Assembly (NCBI GenBank): GCA_023954855.1
Contig: JAGSGY010000018.1
Location: 1 to 64,000, forward strand
Direction: 5' to 3'
Source: Pseudomonadota bacterium
Lineage (GTDB): Bacteria; Myxococcota_A; UBA796; GCA-2862545
DNA length: 64,000 nt
Positions 51,645-58,761 of the stretch are shown here, piece after piece (positions within the stretch are counted from its first letter, which is position 1; every line of letters begins with the position of its first letter). The position numbers and the translations under genes were made by a program. The notes beneath the pieces were generated by a model that worked only from the letters and a program-made list of their open reading frames with translations, did no database searches and had not been told where the DNA came from.

Positions 51645-52478
51645 GTGCCCATCTGGCATAGGACCCCAGCCCTCGCGATCTGGCTGATCGCATGCACGCC
51701 GCTGCCCCATGAGACGGCCCGTTGCGTTCAGACCGCGCGCCAGCTCGTGTGTACCCACGAGACCTTGGTGCTCCCGGCCGGAAGTGGCGAGCGCGAGGTG
51801 CATTATCAAGTGCCTTCAGGGGATCCCCTCTCCAGTGGGTTTCCTGCCGTGTTGCTCTTTCAGGGTGCGCTGTTCTCTGGCGAGGGCATGTGGCAAGGCA
51901 CCCAAGGCGCGGCCGTCGGGGCGTACCACCAGACGCGCACCGTCGAACAGCTGCTCGAGCACGGATTCGCAGTGGTCACGCCAGAGGCCGCCGGAGACGG
52001 GCTGACCGCCTGGAACACGAATGTGCCCCCTCATGCCGGCAACTGGGAGGCTTCCCCAGATGCTGAGCTCCTCGACGGCATCTTCGCGTCGATCGACGCC
52101 GGTGACTTTGGCCCCGTCGACGCCGATGCGCTCTACGCCGCGGGGATCAGCAGCGGCGGGTACATGACGAGCCGCATGGCCCAGGCCTACCCGGGCCGCT
52201 TTGACGGGCTGGCCATCCACTCCGCCTCTTGGGCGACCTGCGCGGGCGCGGTCTGCGCCATCCCAGATCCCCTCCCCGAGGACCACCCTCCGACGCTGTT
52301 TCTTCACGGCGGCCTCGACGGCATTGTGCCCCCGGGCTCCAGCCGCCGCTATGCCCGCCGCCTGGAAGAGATGGGCGTCGACACCGACCGACAAGCGCAG
52401 CCTCTTCGCACGCATCGATGGCTCGACATCGCGCCCGACGCCATCGTGACGTGGTTCGAGTCCTACCCGCCTACTTGA
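51645..52478 (+). CDS. Lipoprotein alpha/beta hydrolase (PHB-depolymerase-like esterase)
   Basis: 277 residues from GTG 51645. Signal and lipobox: PALAIWLIAC. The alpha/beta core has the nucleophile motif GISSGGYMTSRMAQAYP (GxSxG) and a late DG/H region (FLHGGLDGIVPPGSS, RTHRW), as in PHB-depolymerase or feruloyl-esterase-like secreted hydrolases. Several Cys in the exported part may form disulfides. Probably an outer-surface esterase; the substrate is unknown. It converges with norR (8-bp overlap). Confidence 0.8.
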   Translation: MPIWHRTPALAIWLIACTPLPHETARCVQTARQLVCTHETLVLPAGSGEREVHYQVPSGDPLSSGFPAVLLFQGALFSGEGMWQGTQGAAVGAYHQTRTVEQLLEHGFAVVTPEAAGDGLTAWNTNVPPHAGNWEASPDAELLDGIFASIDAGDFGPVDADALYAAGISSGGYMTSRMAQAYPGRFDGLAIHSASWATCAGAVCAIPDPLPEDHPPTLFLHGGLDGIVPPGSSRRYARRLEEMGVDTDRQAQPLRTHRWLDIAPDAIVTWFESYPPT

Positions 52479-54000
52479 GGCCCAGGCGCTTCGCGGTGCG
52501 GTAGAGGTTGCCGCGATCGAGCCCGAGGTCCCGCGCAGCCGCCGCCCAGTTGCCTCCCCTCGCCTGCACCGCCGCTTGGATGTGGTCGCGCTGAAACGCA
52601 TCTGTGGCCATACGAAGGGCAACGGTCGGCGTTCGCCGCACGGCGACCGGATCGGCCTCTGAGCCCTCGACGAGGTCGATGTCGGCGTCTGTGATCGTGT
52701 CTCGTCCCGCCGCACCTGCACGCAGCGCCGCCCGAGACAGCTCGTGCTCGAGCTCACGCACGTTTCCGGGCCAGCTGTACTGCTCCAGACTCTGGACAGC
52801 CGGCGGCGACAACACGAGCTGCGGCAGGCCGAGCCTGATGCGCACGCGGTCGAGGAGGTAGCTCCCGAGCACGGGCATGTCATCGAGGTGATCCCGAAGC
52901 GGCGGCACATGAATCGGAAAGACACTGATGCGGTGGAACAGGTCGGCCCGAAAGCGCCCTTCCTTGACGGCGCGCGTGAGGTTGCGGTTGGTTGCCGCGA
53001 GCACCCGCACGTCGACCTGGCGGTGCTCATCGGAGCCGAGCCGCTGGATCTCCCCAAACTGAAGCGCACGCAGGAGCTTTGCTTGGAGCGACAGAGGAAG
53101 CTCACCGATCTCGTCGAGGAACAGGGTTCCACCGTTGGCGAGCTCGAACTTTCCGGCGCGGGTACCGATGGCTCCGGTAAACGCCCCGCGTACGTGCCCA
53201 AACAGCTCGCTCTCGGCCAAAGACTCGGGCAGTGCGGCACAGTTGATGTAGATGAGCGGCTCGTCCGACCGACCCGAATGCGCGTGCAGGGTGCGAGCGA
53301 CCACCTCTTTGCCGGTGCCCGTCTCGCCGGTGATCAACACGGTCAGGTCCGAAGGGGCAACGAGCTGTATTTCCCGCCGAACCCGCTCGATGGACTCGGA
53401 GTTGCCGACAAGGCCTTGGCCATGCCGCCGAAGCGCCTCGGCCACGAGGTCCTGGGCACTCGCATGCGTGACCCGGTTCGACTGCTCGAGCAGCTCGATC
53501 AACTCGGCCACCTGCATCGAGGCTGCGGTCATCGCCGCGAAGCCCTCGAAAAGCCCCATGTCGACGTCTTCGAACTGATCGGGCTCCAGCGCATCGAGGG
53601 TCAGCGCGCCGATGAGCTTCTGTCCGACGTACAGGCCACAGCCCATGCAGGAGTGCACGTGCAGCAGGTCGGTGTCGAGGGATAGCACCAGGCCGTCATA
53701 GGGGTCCGGCCGACTGTCATCGGCAGCGAAGAGCACCGGCTTTCGCGCGTCGGTGATGGCCTTCAGACGTGGGTGCTCTGTGATGGGAAACGGGCGGCCC
53801 ACGACCGAAGGATCGATGCCACGGACGGCAATCGGTCGAAGCGCTTCACCATCGCAGCGCAGCAGCACCGCGGCGTCGCAGGGGATGGCATCGACAATCG
53901 CGGACAGCAGCTGCGCATAGCGCGCCTCGGACGACAGACTTGCGGTCAAGTCGAGTGCGGTCCGCACCAGGGCATCGGCGACTGTGAGGCGCTGAGTCAT
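52471..54000 (-). CDS. norR: NorR, sigma54-dependent nitric oxide-responsive activator
   Basis: 509 residues with full NorR order: N-terminal GAF domain ([46 protein letters not shown]), AAA+ domain with Walker A GETGTGKE and the sigma54-contact loop GAFTGA, and a C-terminal Fis-type helix-turn-helix ending [16 protein letters not shown]. NorR senses NO by a mononuclear iron in the GAF domain and then activates sigma54 promoters. It is the last gene of the nor run, 61 bp after norD, and its likely targets are the GT-N7-AC sites upstream of norC. Confidence 0.93.
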
Positions 54001-54061: not shown

Positions 54062-55906
54062 TCATCGCATGGCCATCCTGGCAGTGAGTGTGGTCAAAAC
54101 GGGCGGCAGCAAGTCGGCCGAAGGCAGCAGGTCCCACGAGCCTCTTCCGAGCATGACCGGAAGCACGTCTTGCGCTTGGCTATCGATGGCGAGCGCGTGC
54201 ACGCGAATGCCTTCGCTGCGGGCATCGAGCACGGCTCTGCGCACATCAGCCACGCCGTAGCGCCCTTCGTACTTGTCGTAGTCGGTGGGCTTGCCGTCCG
54301 AGAGCAAGATCAGCAGCTTGCGCCGCGACACCCGACTGCGAAGGTCCGCGGTCGCATGTCGAATGGCGGGGCCAATACGCGTGTAGCCCTGGGGGTGGAG
54401 CAGGCCGATTCGTCCGCGGGCCACGGCCCAGGGCTCATCCCAGTGCAGCACGTCCCAGGCACGCACCTGGTTTCGGGTCTGCGAGGCAAACGCGATGATC
54501 CGAAGGTCGAGGTCGAACTCCTGCATGACCTCGCCGAGCACGAGCAGCGACTCGCGAGCCACATCGAGCACCCGCCGTCCGTCGACCCAGCCATCCGAGG
54601 ATAGCGACAGATCGAGCAACACCGTCGTCGCCATGTCCCAGTCACGGCGATGCAGGCGCCGGTACAGGCGCGCGTCCCCACCGTGCTTGGCCTTGCGGGC
54701 GGAGAGTTCGTCGACCACCGCGTCGATGTCGATTTCCTCGCCCTCGGTCTGCCGAGGACGCGGCCGCAGCGAGTCTTTGAGTACCCGCAGCTTGAGGCGA
54801 AGGTCGTCAATCTCCTTCCGCCACTTCTCGGTCGCCCGGGCCGCCCAGTCATCGCCTCCGCGAGGAACCACGGTCGGGTAGACCATCGTCCAGTCTTCGC
54901 GGTAGGCGGCCTTCTTGTAGTTCCACTCGGGGTAGGGAATGCCGCGCTCGCTGGGCGCAATCGTGCCCACATCGGGAATCTCGAGGTCGAGCACCACGTC
55001 GGCCTTGATCACCGACCGGGCCTGCTCACCGCCGCGAATGAGGTCGCGAAGATCGACTTCATCGAGGGCTTCGAGGTGGTCGTCGAGGTCATCGGACCCA
55101 TCCATGGGCCGCGCACCGCCCGACCACTCATCAAGGGTCTCGACCTTCTCGAAGACGTGGACCGGCAGCTCGACCACGTCTTCTTCGCCGACATCGAGCA
55201 GGCGGATGTCCTCGACATCGAGCACCTCGGACTCACTGCTGTCTTGGGCCGGTGGCGCATCGCCGCCGTGGCTGCCGTCCGAGGCCTCGAAGCCGACCTC
55301 GATGGCACGTCCCCAGATCGTGACCTCGGTCGTCGCGAGGGCCTTGTCGAAGCAGCTCGCCATCGTGTCGAGATCCCAGGGTCGCTGCCCCTGAAGAGCG
55401 GCGTGAATCGCCCGTTCTTGCACCCTGGCAACGCCCTTCAGACCGTCGAGATCTGGGCGAGCAGCGAGCTCGGCGCGACAGCAACTCTCGTGCATCTCGG
55501 CGAGATGGGGCAGCGCCTCGGCCGCGGACTCCACGACCTCGATGCAGCGCCGGTAGTGGTCCATCCACGTTCCCTCGCAAGGACCTTGCTCCACGAGCAA
55601 CGCGCCGATCACCGTGCGGTAGGTGAACACCTCGGCGTTCACGGCGGGGTTGTCAGAGAGGTCGACCCGAATGGGAAGCAGCAGGTCTGCACCCCGAACG
55701 CCGCCGGTCCCCGCGGACTGCAGCACTCGAACCCGCTCTCCACCGAGGACGCGCCCAAGTACCCGTAAGGAGGCCTGGCGATCAGAAAGCGCGACCGCAG
55801 CCTCCGAGATCACCTCTTCGCTCACCGGGAACGCAATCCGCCACAGCGAACGCGCGGCGCGGTACAGCGCCTGCTCCCAGTCGAGGTCGAGCGAAGAGGC
55901 ATCCAT
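54062..55906 (-). CDS. norD: NorD, VWA protein for nitric oxide reductase activation
   Basis: 614 residues. The C-terminal VWA domain has its MIDAS in LLDLSLSSDGW (DxSxS), with a second metal-site Asp in LLSDGKPTDYDKYEGRYGV, the NorD-specific wording. The middle is strongly acidic. NorD acts with the MoxR-type ATPase NorQ to insert metal (probably the non-heme iron) into NorB. The start overlaps the norQ stop by one base. Confidence 0.9.
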   Translation of the reverse strand: MDASSLDLDWEQALYRAARSLWRIAFPVSEEVISEAAVALSDRQASLRVLGRVLGGERVRVLQSAGTGGVRGADLLLPIRVDLSDNPAVNAEVFTYRTVIGALLVEQGPCEGTWMDHYRRCIEVVESAAEALPHLAEMHESCCRAELAARPDLDGLKGVARVQERAIHAALQGQRPWDLDTMASCFDKALATTEVTIWGRAIEVGFEASDGSHGGDAPPAQDSSESEVLDVEDIRLLDVGEEDVVELPVHVFEKVETLDEWSGGARPMDGSDDLDDHLEALDEVDLRDLIRGGEQARSVIKADVVLDLEIPDVGTIAPSERGIPYPEWNYKKAAYREDWTMVYPTVVPRGGDDWAARATEKWRKEIDDLRLKLRVLKDSLRPRPRQTEGEEIDIDAVVDELSARKAKHGGDARLYRRLHRRDWDMATTVLLDLSLSSDGWVDGRRVLDVARESLLVLGEVMQEFDLDLRIIAFASQTRNQVRAWDVLHWDEPWAVARGRIGLLHPQGYTRIGPAIRHATADLRSRVSRRKLLILLSDGKPTDYDKYEGRYGVADVRRAVLDARSEGIRVHALAIDSQAQDVLPVMLGRGSWDLLPSADLLPPVLTTLTARMAMR

Positions 55907-56682
55907 CAGAGCACCAGCTTCACAGCTTGCATGAGCCCGTCGATGACTTCGGCATCATCGGTGAGCGGCTCGACCATGGCGGCCTGAGCCGCCTCACGGG
56001 CGGGGTAGCCCGACGCAATCAGCTTGCCGGTCTCAACGAGAAGCCGCGTCGACGGCACCTCGGCGAGCCCGAGTCGATCGAGCGTCCGAAGCTTGTGTCC
56101 AAGTGCGACGAGACGCTTGGCCATCGCCGCGGGCACCCCCGACTCGGCCTCGACAATCTCTTGCTCGACCGAGGCGGACGGGTAGTCGAATCGAACCCCC
56201 AAGAAGCGCTGCCGGGTCGATGGCTTGAGCTCCTTGAGACGGTTCTGGTATCCGGGGTTGTAGCTGGCCACGAGCATGAAGCCCTCGGCGGCCGTCAGCG
56301 AGGTATCGAGACGGTCGACGAAGATCTGATGCCGGTGGTCCGACAGTGGGTGAAGCGCGACAATGACGTCGGGTCGCGCCTCAGCGAGTTCATCCAAGTA
56401 GAGAATCGCCCCCTGCCGCACCGCTCGCGTCACCGGCCCGTCCTGCCAGACCGTGTCGCCCCCCTGAATCAGGAAGCGGCCCAGCAGGTCGGTCGCCGAC
56501 GTGTCCTCGTGGCAGGCCACCGTCACCAGGGGGCGTCCCAGGCGATGGGCCATGTGCTCGACGAAGCGTGACTTCCCACAGCCTGTCGGGCCCCGGAGAA
56601 GGAGCGGCTGCCGCAGGCGAAAGGCATGCTCGAAGAGCGCGACCTCTCGACCTACAGCTCGGTAGTAAGGGGCGTCAGACAT
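55906..56682 (-). CDS. norQ: NorQ, MoxR-type AAA+ ATPase
   Basis: 258 residues of the NorQ/CbbQ family: Walker A RGPTGCGKS, Walker B AILYLDELAEARPD, sensor-like ASYNPGYQNRLKELKPSTRQRF. It partners NorD to mature the nitric oxide reductase. It starts immediately after norB and overlaps norD by one base, so the three are co-translated. Confidence 0.93.
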   Translation of the reverse strand: MSDAPYYRAVGREVALFEHAFRLRQPLLLRGPTGCGKSRFVEHMAHRLGRPLVTVACHEDTSATDLLGRFLIQGGDTVWQDGPVTRAVRQGAILYLDELAEARPDVIVALHPLSDHRHQIFVDRLDTSLTAAEGFMLVASYNPGYQNRLKELKPSTRQRFLGVRFDYPSASVEQEIVEAESGVPAAMAKRLVALGHKLRTLDRLGLAEVPSTRLLVETGKLIASGYPAREAAQAAMVEPLTDDAEVIDGLMQAVKLVL

Positions 56683-58050
56683 CTACTTTCCGGGAACCGG
56701 CTCACCAGGAGCGGGCAGCACGGACTCGGACTCGACGGGCAGGCCGTACGAGATGAAGTCCCAGATGAAGAGAAGGATGCCGAGCGTGAACAGGCAGGCG
56801 GCCATCACGAGCATGAAGAAGTGCACGTGCAGTTCCTCCTGGACGAGCATGAAGTCCATGCCGCCAAGGCGCTCGAGGTAGACCTGGGCCACGCCGGCCA
56901 CCGCGAAGGCACCGGTCATGAAGACCATGCCGATGTTCGCGAGCCAGAAGGCCCACTCACTGCGCCAGTGATCGAAGAACTTGCGTCCCGTCATCTCTGG
57001 CAGCGTGTAGCTGATCATCGCGAGAACGAGCATCGCGTAGGCACCCCAGAACGCGAGGTGGCCGTGCATGGCCGTCACGAGCGTTCCGTGCGTCCAGATG
57101 TTCACGCCGGGCAGCGTGTGGGCAAAGCCAAGAAGACCGGCGCCGACAAAGGACATGATGCCTGTGCCCACACTCCACTTGAGTGCGGTCTTGTTCGGGT
57201 GCTGCCGCTGTCCCTTGCGCGAGATGGTCACGGTGTACAGCGCCATTCCGAGGAACGCGAGCGGCTCGAGCGCCGAGAAGATGCCACCGACCATCAGCCA
57301 GTACTCGGGTGCGCCCATCCAGTAGTAGTGGTGGCCGGTTCCGAGGATGCCCGAGAGGAAGGTGAGGCCAACGATGACGTACAGCCACTTCTCGATGACT
57401 TCGCGGTCGACGCCGGTGAGCTTGATGAGCAGGAACGCCAGGATGGCGCCCATGATCAGCTCCCAGACCCCTTCGACCCACAGGTGGACCACCCACCAAC
57501 GGAAGTACGAGTCCATCGCCAGGTTCTCGAAGTAGATCATGCCGGGCAAGTACAGAAGCGCGGCGGCGGTCAATCCCACCATCAAGGTGACGGCCGTGGT
57601 GGTGAAGCGCTTGCCGTTCCACAGCGTCATGCCGATGATCAGCAGGAAGGTCAGCACGTTGACGACCACCAGGTAGTCAAGCGGACGCGGGATCTCGAGG
57701 AACTTACGTCCCTCCCACCAGTTCATGTGGAAGCCGAGGATGGCGATGACCCCGACCAGCAGCAGAGAACCCCACTGCACCCAAGCGAGCTTCGGCATCC
57801 AGATGTCGCGGCCCGACTCCTCGGGAATGATGTAGTAGGCCGAGCCCATGAAGCCCGCGAGAAGCCAGACCACAAGCAGGTTGGTGTGGGTCGCTCGGGC
57901 GGCGTTGAACGGAATGAAGTCGTGCAGAACGTCGTAGCCCATGTGCGCAAAGCCCATGATGAAGCCGTAGCAGATCTGCAAGAAGAACAGGCCCATGCAG
58001 GCGGCAAAGAACGCCCATGCGAGCTGACGTGAGTGCTTGAGACTCGTCAT
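56683..58050 (-). CDS. norB: NorB, nitric oxide reductase catalytic subunit (cNOR type)
   Basis: 455 residues, about twelve membrane helices. The heme-copper oxidase relative has its metal ligands visible: ARATHTNLLVVWLLAGF, HLWVEGVWELIMGAI (FeB His plus the two Glu of NorB), GTGHHYYW and HGHLAFWGAY. There is no N-terminal quinol-oxidase extension, so this is the cytochrome c-dependent type that needs NorC. It reduces 2 NO to N2O. AGGAGG precedes the ATG, nine bases after norC. Confidence 0.96.
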   Translation of the reverse strand: MTSLKHSRQLAWAFFAACMGLFFLQICYGFIMGFAHMGYDVLHDFIPFNAARATHTNLLVVWLLAGFMGSAYYIIPEESGRDIWMPKLAWVQWGSLLLVGVIAILGFHMNWWEGRKFLEIPRPLDYLVVVNVLTFLLIIGMTLWNGKRFTTTAVTLMVGLTAAALLYLPGMIYFENLAMDSYFRWWVVHLWVEGVWELIMGAILAFLLIKLTGVDREVIEKWLYVIVGLTFLSGILGTGHHYYWMGAPEYWLMVGGIFSALEPLAFLGMALYTVTISRKGQRQHPNKTALKWSVGTGIMSFVGAGLLGFAHTLPGVNIWTHGTLVTAMHGHLAFWGAYAMLVLAMISYTLPEMTGRKFFDHWRSEWAFWLANIGMVFMTGAFAVAGVAQVYLERLGGMDFMLVQEELHVHFFMLVMAACLFTLGILLFIWDFISYGLPVESESVLPAPGEPVPGK

Positions 58051-58059
58051 GATTGCCTC

Positions 58060-58761
58060 CTACTTGAGCGATGAGAGCCACGTGACCAGGGCAGCCCGGT
58101 CAGCGTCGGTGAGGTTGAGATTCGGCATGGTGGTGCCGGGCTTCACGGACTGGGGGTCCTTGAGCCAGATGTCGAGGTCGGCCGACGTGATGCGGGTTCC
58201 GACTCCGTCGAGGGCAGGTCCGACGTTTCCGCCCGAGCCGCCGACCGCGTGACACGCAGCGCAGATCGTGCCGTACACCGGCGGTGCTGCAGCGAGTGCT
58301 GCGACACCCGCCTCGGTCGGCAGTGCCTCTGAAGCCCCGAGCCCCTGAAGCCGTGGCTTCGCGGGGAACCCGTTCGTGTCGATCTTTCCAACCCAATCGA
58401 GGAAATCGATGACGTCCTCGATCTCTTCTTCAGTGAAGTTGTACTGCACCATCTTGCGACGGCCCGGGTACATCGCCTGCGGGTCCTTGAGGAAGGTGCG
58501 GAGCCAGGGCTTGCCGCGACGTTCGACTGCCAACGTCAGCTCTGGCGCGTAATACGCACCCTCACCGAGAAGGGTGTGGCAGCCCATACAGTTGTTTTCG
58601 TCCCAGATGAGGCGCCCTCTCAAGGCGCTCTCTGAGAGGTCGTTTTCATGGGTTCGCTCGGGCAGCTGACGGATGGTATCGACGGTCAAGAAGAGAAAGA
58701 CCGCTGAGAACCCACCCGTGGCCACCAGGAAGAACCACTTCGCTTGTGATTTTGAGAGCAT
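58060..58761 (-). CDS. norC: NorC with an extra C-terminal cytochrome c domain
   Basis: 233 residues, start ATG 58761 (TGGAGTG upstream). An N-terminal membrane anchor (KWFFLVATGGFSAVFLFLTV), then the NorC cytochrome with CMGCH (58-62) and axial-Met region RRKMVQYNF. Ordinary NorC proteins end near residue 150. Here a second cytochrome c domain follows, with CAACH (167-171) and likely Met212 (TTMPNLNL). The extra heme probably takes electrons from periplasmic carriers and passes them to the first. Expressed from a sigma54 promoter. Confidence 0.93.
   Translation of the reverse strand: MLSKSQAKWFFLVATGGFSAVFLFLTVDTIRQLPERTHENDLSESALRGRLIWDENNCMGCHTLLGEGAYYAPELTLAVERRGKPWLRTFLKDPQAMYPGRRKMVQYNFTEEEIEDVIDFLDWVGKIDTNGFPAKPRLQGLGASEALPTEAGVAALAAAPPVYGTICAACHAVGGSGGNVGPALDGVGTRITSADLDIWLKDPQSVKPGTTMPNLNLTDADRAALVTWLSSLK

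Follow-up and report, generated by a model that had tools for sequence, protein, structure and literature searches.

A nitric oxide reductase NorC subunit with a second cytochrome c domain, and its spread in the phylum

Does a nitric oxide reductase whose NorC subunit carries two heme c motifs bring its own electron donor with it? The cNOR enzymes are normally described as having two subunits, one heme c and a mobile donor. The norC gene described here (58060..58761) lies on the minus strand, as do all features given below for this locus, in the first 64,000 nucleotides of contig JAGSGY010000018.1, referred to as the window. Its product of 233 residues has two heme c domains by translation, by Pfam and by its match to the NorC of P. 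aeruginosa. A sequence-only reading had counted two CXXCH motifs, at residues 58-62 and 167-171, against one in an ordinary NorC of about 150 residues, and had taken the added domain for a fused electron donor that would lessen the need for a soluble cytochrome. The count is borne out by the translation and by the two cytochrome c stretches that Pfam places in the protein (48-123 and 157-229), and the usual length by 12 complete one-motif NorCs collected here, which have 144-151 residues.

The protein begins with a membrane helix (residues 4-31; 58669..58752) predicted in the AlphaFold2 model and aligned with the N-terminus of P. aeruginosa NorC. Domain 1 (residues 44-134; 58360..58632) is an ordinary NorC cytochrome c (3o0r_C, phmmer E 8e-34; VIA-align Z 10.5). 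It contains the first heme motif, CMGCH (58-62; 58576..58590), and Met104 (58450..58452), the presumed axial ligand of heme 1 from its alignment to the axial ligand in P. aeruginosa NorC. A linker (residues 135-156; 58294..58359), modelled with pLDDT below 50 at 135-147, leads to domain 2 (residues 157-233; 58063..58293), a class I cytochrome c according to Pfam and to VIA-align rows over the same residues. The CAACH and TTMP segments claimed for the added domain are both present, the first as heme motif 2 (167-171; 58249..58263) and the second around Met212 (58126..58128), the presumed axial ligand of heme 2. All four cysteines of the protein sit inside the two CXXCH motifs, and none of 200,000 shuffles of the sequence produced two such motifs by chance. 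Residues 4-134 match P. aeruginosa NorC (146 residues; E 8e-34, 120.4 bits) and the match stops before domain 2; residues 2-133 match R. denitrificans NorC (150 residues; E 1.8e-12).

The gene heads a norCBQD-norR cluster. The catalytic subunit gene norB (56683..58050) follows norC after a gap of 9 bases and is followed on the same strand by norQ, norD and norR. NorB has 455 residues, matches PF00115 (E 7.9e-60) and finds its closest PDB match in P. aeruginosa NorB (3o0r_B; E 1.8e-118, 399.8 bits, over 7-432). The two align across the HLWVEGVWEL and TGHHY blocks, presumably those of the active site. On these sequence features NorB is an ordinary cNOR NorB lacking the N-terminal extension of qNOR. 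A qNOR, a single long chain with an N-terminal domain fused to NorB, was rejected as an identity on the length of NorB and the absence of PF22085 from its families. A caa3-type oxygen reductase was likewise rejected: NorC shows no cupredoxin family up to E 0.1, and the likeness to caa3 is one of layout only. The genes adjoining norCB, as tested for cNOR membership, encode a MoxR-type AAA+ protein with a CbbQ/NirQ/NorQ C-terminal domain (norQ, 55906..56682) and a VWA protein (54062..55906; PF00092), named norD by its position. The NO-responsive sigma-54 activator norR (52471..54000) scores 675.4 bits with NF003451 against a cut-off of 476. A cNOR is expected to have a one-heme NorC, and the two CXXCH motifs found here, each with a conserved Met, are treated as a variant and not as grounds for exclusion.

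Such a protein could also appear if a sequencing error or a chimera had fused separate genes, but no sign of this was found. No stop codon separates domains 1 and 2, which lie in a single open frame, and the frameshift between separate genes that the sequence-only reading had named as a possible refutation is not borne out. The full-span layout, without stops, recurs in 48 genomes (this one included) and in the Sulfidibacter corallicola chromosome, whose record is titled a complete genome. This recurrence rules out an artefact for practical purposes, and we assign that explanation a negligible probability.

The spread of the fusion was followed in a sample of 377 genomes of the phylum, presumably Myxococcota (genomes, contigs and loci are numbered with G, C and L), in which the whole NorC as query matched 68 genomes at E 1e-15. 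Fused NorCs fall into two types. Type A, to which the NorC of the window belongs, occurs in 51 genomes, 48 with the full span and three with partial sequences covering both heme motifs; all 51 were read and have both CXXCH motifs in one frame. Type B occurs in eight (L055-L062), with two CXXCH motifs each and a longer, different second domain. One genome, G053, has an unfused NorC. Two more NorCs (G040, G016) are clipped by a contig end with one domain visible and were left out of this count, and six matches to other proteins (G314, G322, G159, G061, G170, G229) were set aside. The fused form accounts for 59 of the 60 NorC genes with visible architecture; the second heme domain is the usual form of NorC in the phylum and no peculiarity of a single genome. 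The search from the NorB side found 67 genomes, or 62 with cNOR after removal of five matches resembling qNOR (G032, G058, G065, G150, G206), which are 30-33% identical and lie in open frames 770-961 residues long. All 62 are among the 62 NorC genomes except G301, where a contig end cuts the locus, and G040 has NorC only. This agreement indicates that the NorC query hid no unfused forms in the phylum sample.

Among named records, 19 loci were matched by NorC, of which nine are fused (L019-L026, and L035 with its start cut off), eight unfused and two other cytochromes. The labels on the fused loci, which may be wrong where the record is a MAG, are Myxococcota, Deltaproteobacteria or 'proteobacterium' MAGs (six), a Bacteroidota MAG, the S. 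corallicola chromosome (Acidobacteriota) and a Verrucomicrobiales MAG; the last three records hold type A. The unfused loci are the record of G053 (L027) and seven from Bacteroidota (L028-L034). NorC also matched 281 plasmid records. Two of them, from the Burkholderiales Eleftheria terrae and Aquabacterium olei (L142, L143), reach at least 80% query coverage and both encode a type B NorC, which in A. olei lies near norR and ytfE. The genes are annotated as 'cytochrome c' and 'c-type cytochrome', respectively, and because both records give only such generic names the architecture is easy to overlook. The other plasmid records, among 60 matches listed, match domain 1 only or residues 166-233 only, and several of them are annotated as oxidase subunit II; a second domain unlike that of type A would escape a match of the domain-1-only kind.

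In 45 type A proteins, residues C58, C61, H62, M104, C167, C170, H171, M212 and P213 are each conserved in at least 95%. Mean conservation is 0.76 for domain 1, 0.65 for domain 2 and 0.43 for the linker. The dipeptide MP follows the second motif in all 46 type A and all 10 type B proteins, and the two CXXCH motifs of 46 proteins are spaced by 101-153 residues (median 106). A narrow regular expression finds the domain 1 Met in 34 of 46 type A proteins; the alignment, with M104 in at least 95% of 45, is preferred. Fused and unfused NorCs cannot be told apart by the net charge of domain 1 (medians -4, -4.5 and -5). Because the heme motif and Met are conserved in type A, and MP in all, the heme-bearing second domain appears to be under selection.

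The AlphaFold2 model of NorC, built for NorC alone without NorB or heme from 13 sequences (eight with domain 2 and five without), is of middling confidence (pLDDT 74.1, pTM 0.49). It comprises the helix at 4-31, domain 1, a linker of low certainty at 135-147 and domain 2, which is helical; stretches 67-70 and 98-104 of domain 1 also have pLDDT below 50. When Foldseek matches were realigned with VIA-align, residues 2-137 superposed on 3o0r_C (Z 10.5, rmsd 3.7, 127 aligned). Domain 2 (157-233) superposed on the mutant Kuenenia diheme cytochrome Kustd1711 (7zs1; Z 9.4, rmsd 1.9, 75 aligned) and on SoxX of SoxAX (1h32_B; Z 9.3, rmsd 2.0, 77 aligned). The placement of the two domains relative to each other in the model is tentative.

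The second domain could have arisen by duplication of the first or by acquisition of a carrier. The scores given here for a type A domain 2 profile are those among the matches listed. At 121-125 bits, free cytochromes from G314 and G322 fall within NorC's own range; a cytochrome of G159 with a long C-terminal extension reaches 98 and a 134-residue cytochrome of G330 reaches 74. The caa3 CoxB-like tails of G043, G054, G056 and G282 score 70-74 bits and multiheme proteins 49-57, while no one-heme NorC exceeds 45.5. In the PDB, domain 2 has weak sequence matches that include cytochrome cy, subunit II of caa3 and c552 of P. denitrificans. In these comparisons it thus stands nearest to free cytochromes and to the tail of caa3 subunit II. 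Since these outscore the one-heme NorCs, domain 2 seems to have been acquired as a carrier, and its origin by duplication of domain 1 is not favoured.

Several of these relatives have contexts of their own. G314 and G322 belong to the same order as the genome of the window and gave no cNOR match; their free cytochromes (L063:3332-3637 and L064:664-1008) are 65-66% identical to NorC domain 2. They lie directly upstream of a molybdopterin gene (L141:1037-5626 in G322; L063 from 3666 in G314), which in G322 is followed by a gene for a 4Fe-4S protein. The G322 molybdopterin protein has nitrite oxidoreductase subunit A (7b04) as its best PDB match, with 874 bits over its length, and bacteria of this group may oxidise nitrite or reduce nitrate in the periplasm. 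In G159 (L075:2272-3906, minus strand) a cytochrome c of the domain 2 family is fused to about 400 further residues, barrel-like by eye.

A single origin of types A and B finds no support. The type B domain 2 profile gives type A proteins at most 17.4 bits among the matches listed, and on a NorB tree type B forms one side of a branch with support 94. This tree of 63 rows (45 type A, nine type B, nine unfused) came from a quick search with long branches flagged, and the base of its part with type A and unfused Bacteroidota has no firm branching. The three NorC states need three changes on it, of which type A needs two. The simplest reading is that a carrier domain was gained on two separate occasions. 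The unfused NorC of G053 lies within a starred clade (support 99) with the fused G035 and G054. Given this nesting, loss is the simplest reading and G053 appears to have lost domain 2; its norC (L065/L027) ends after 147 codons and norB starts directly after. G053 is thereby a natural deletion experiment for domain 2.

What could feed the second heme was sought in the genome of the window, which is 97% complete. No match to PF00033, the sole cytochrome b model used for cytochrome bc1, was found in it, and none to NirS. It has one ActD match and an ACIII-like locus encoding a pentaheme protein, a Mo/FeS protein, NrfD and a monoheme cytochrome, as well as two further COX1 loci, cbb3-like and aa3-like by eye. 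A NirK above the family cut-off (L156:1680-3170, minus strand, contig C142) shares its contig with the gene for a NapA-like protein, which at 889.7 bits falls just below the cut-off of 904. The NirK matches the three-domain NirK of R. pickettii over 38-495 (770.8 bits) and has a C-terminal cytochrome c domain, so two successive denitrification enzymes of this genome, NirK and NorC, carry a tethered cytochrome c.

The preferred reading, to which we give a probability of about 70% from sequence and by analogy with caa3 oxidases and three-domain NirK, is that domain 2 is a relay, covalently tied to NorC, through which electrons enter for the reduction of NO. The domain 2 heme would be reduced by electrons from the periplasmic side and would pass them across the short linker to the heme of domain 1. 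NorB would then take them over heme b to its heme b3/FeB site and reduce NO to N2O there. With ACIII genes present and cytochrome bc1 undetected in this genome, electrons of the quinone pool would most likely leave through ACIII, directly or by way of a small cytochrome. The parts that we infer are that the hemes are loaded, which way the electrons flow and what reduces domain 2.

Precedents can be drawn from NirK and from cNOR itself. In P. denitrificans, according to the available text of PMC6872814, soluble cytochrome c or pseudoazurin feeds NorC. A 2026 study of three-domain NirK (PMC13324648) supports, in the portions available, the tethered cytochrome as a redox donor; it also links tethering to gating, to lower activity than in the two-domain enzyme and to protection from reductive inactivation. 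Since tethered NirKs are slower than two-domain ones, a fused domain is not necessarily a better donor. The sequence-only reading holds in that the second cytochrome c domain is real and conserved, and its homology to tethered and free carriers speaks for a fused donor; on a lesser need for soluble cytochrome, which is conjecture, the NirK activities advise caution.

The same portions of PMC13324648 describe tethered NirKs as still servable by soluble cytochrome (PhNiR uses c549). Domain 2 may accordingly do no more than raise the local concentration of donor heme, with soluble cytochromes still needed to carry electrons from the quinol-oxidising complex and the dependence on them unchanged. 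To this we give a little under even odds; it is compatible with the relay and contests only the reduced dependence on soluble cytochrome. A further possibility, which we consider unlikely, is that domain 2 serves mainly in docking or gating, recruiting ACIII or NirK or restraining electron entry when NO is absent, while soluble donors reduce domain 1 directly. The gating, protection and lower activity tied to the NirK cytochrome in what is available of PMC13324648 would fit, as would G053, which keeps norCB without domain 2, so that the domain is dispensable at least there. However, the heme motif and Met of domain 2, conserved in at least 95%, would be needless for docking alone.

The tethered relay can be set against the distribution of quinol-oxidising complexes in the phylum sample. 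ActD occurs in 60 of 62 cNOR genomes and 259 of 315 others (Fisher p 0.002, ignoring relatedness), and a PF00033 match in 17 of 62 against 144 of 315 (Fisher p 0.008, likewise ignoring relatedness), which leaves 45 of 62 cNOR genomes without a cytochrome b match against 171 of 315 in the rest. Since most genomes of the phylum have ActD in any case (319 of 377), the association fits a route from ACIII to NorC and does not prove it; it may reflect ancestry only. Strong PF00033 matches (E up to 1e-30) in 13 of the 62 cNOR genomes, and the lack of an ActD match in two, indicate that ACIII is not the sole possible electron source. It is a speculative and rather improbable extension that in bc1-less Myxococcota ACIII feeds the cytochrome-bearing NirK and NorC directly, giving a membrane-associated chain from nitrite to N2O that would need no soluble cytochrome pool. 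Near PF00033 matches, on the same contigs (G229:C1, G061:C36), lie proteins with eight CXXCH motifs (L073, L074), which may be parts of unusual bc-type complexes.

Of the wide and known occurrence that the sequence-only reading had named as counting against it, the width is found (59 of 60 visible NorC genes), but no paper describing the fusion was. Among the matches listed in the open-access literature, whose coverage is incomplete and includes few subscription papers, no description of a NorC with a second cytochrome domain was found. The available text of PMC8498564, PMC8756737, PMC3084760, PMC10732223, PMC6688271, PMC7694296, PMC10734462, PMC12569097 and PMC6872814 describes no two-heme or cytochrome-fused NorC. 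In PMC8756737, as far as its available text goes, norC-like genes annotated as NOR in Nitrospirae and one Geobacteraceae hold a homologue of that study's C1 cytochrome domain and may touch the same fusion; an earlier description elsewhere is possible. That nearly all visible cNORs of a phylum hold a second heme c of their own, in one or other of two versions, suggests that bacteria running on ACIII wire the formation of N2O differently. The fused NorCs and the apparent loss in G053 offer natural variants for testing the effect of tethering a donor.

Compared with the cNOR of P. aeruginosa (3o0r), the enzyme shares the length of NorB, the anchor and domain 1 of NorC and the neighbouring norQ- and norD-like genes. 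The P. aeruginosa NorC has 146 residues and its match ends at residue 134, whereas about 100 more residues with a second heme domain follow here. In caa3 oxidases the partner of the cytochrome is a CuA domain and the substrate is O2. Their subunit II (2yev, and the CoxB-like proteins of G043, G054, G056 and G282) likewise has a class I cytochrome c fused after the domain at which electrons enter a heme-copper enzyme; here the partner is a heme domain of NorC and the substrate is NO. The class I cytochromes cy (6xkx) and c552 of P. denitrificans (1c7m) are membrane-anchored, match domain 2 weakly (E 1.5e-5 and 1.5e-4) and have no NorC fusion. The three-domain NirK of Ralstonia pickettii (RpNiR, 3ziy), of which the genome of the window has a counterpart, is likewise an enzyme of denitrification whose C-terminus bears a tethered cytochrome c. 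It is a copper enzyme with no membrane anchor and its acceptor is type 1 copper, whereas the acceptor in NorC is a heme. Set beside these systems, the fused NorC is a widespread variant in architecture, apparently not yet described, of an enzyme that is itself well known, rather than a new type of system.
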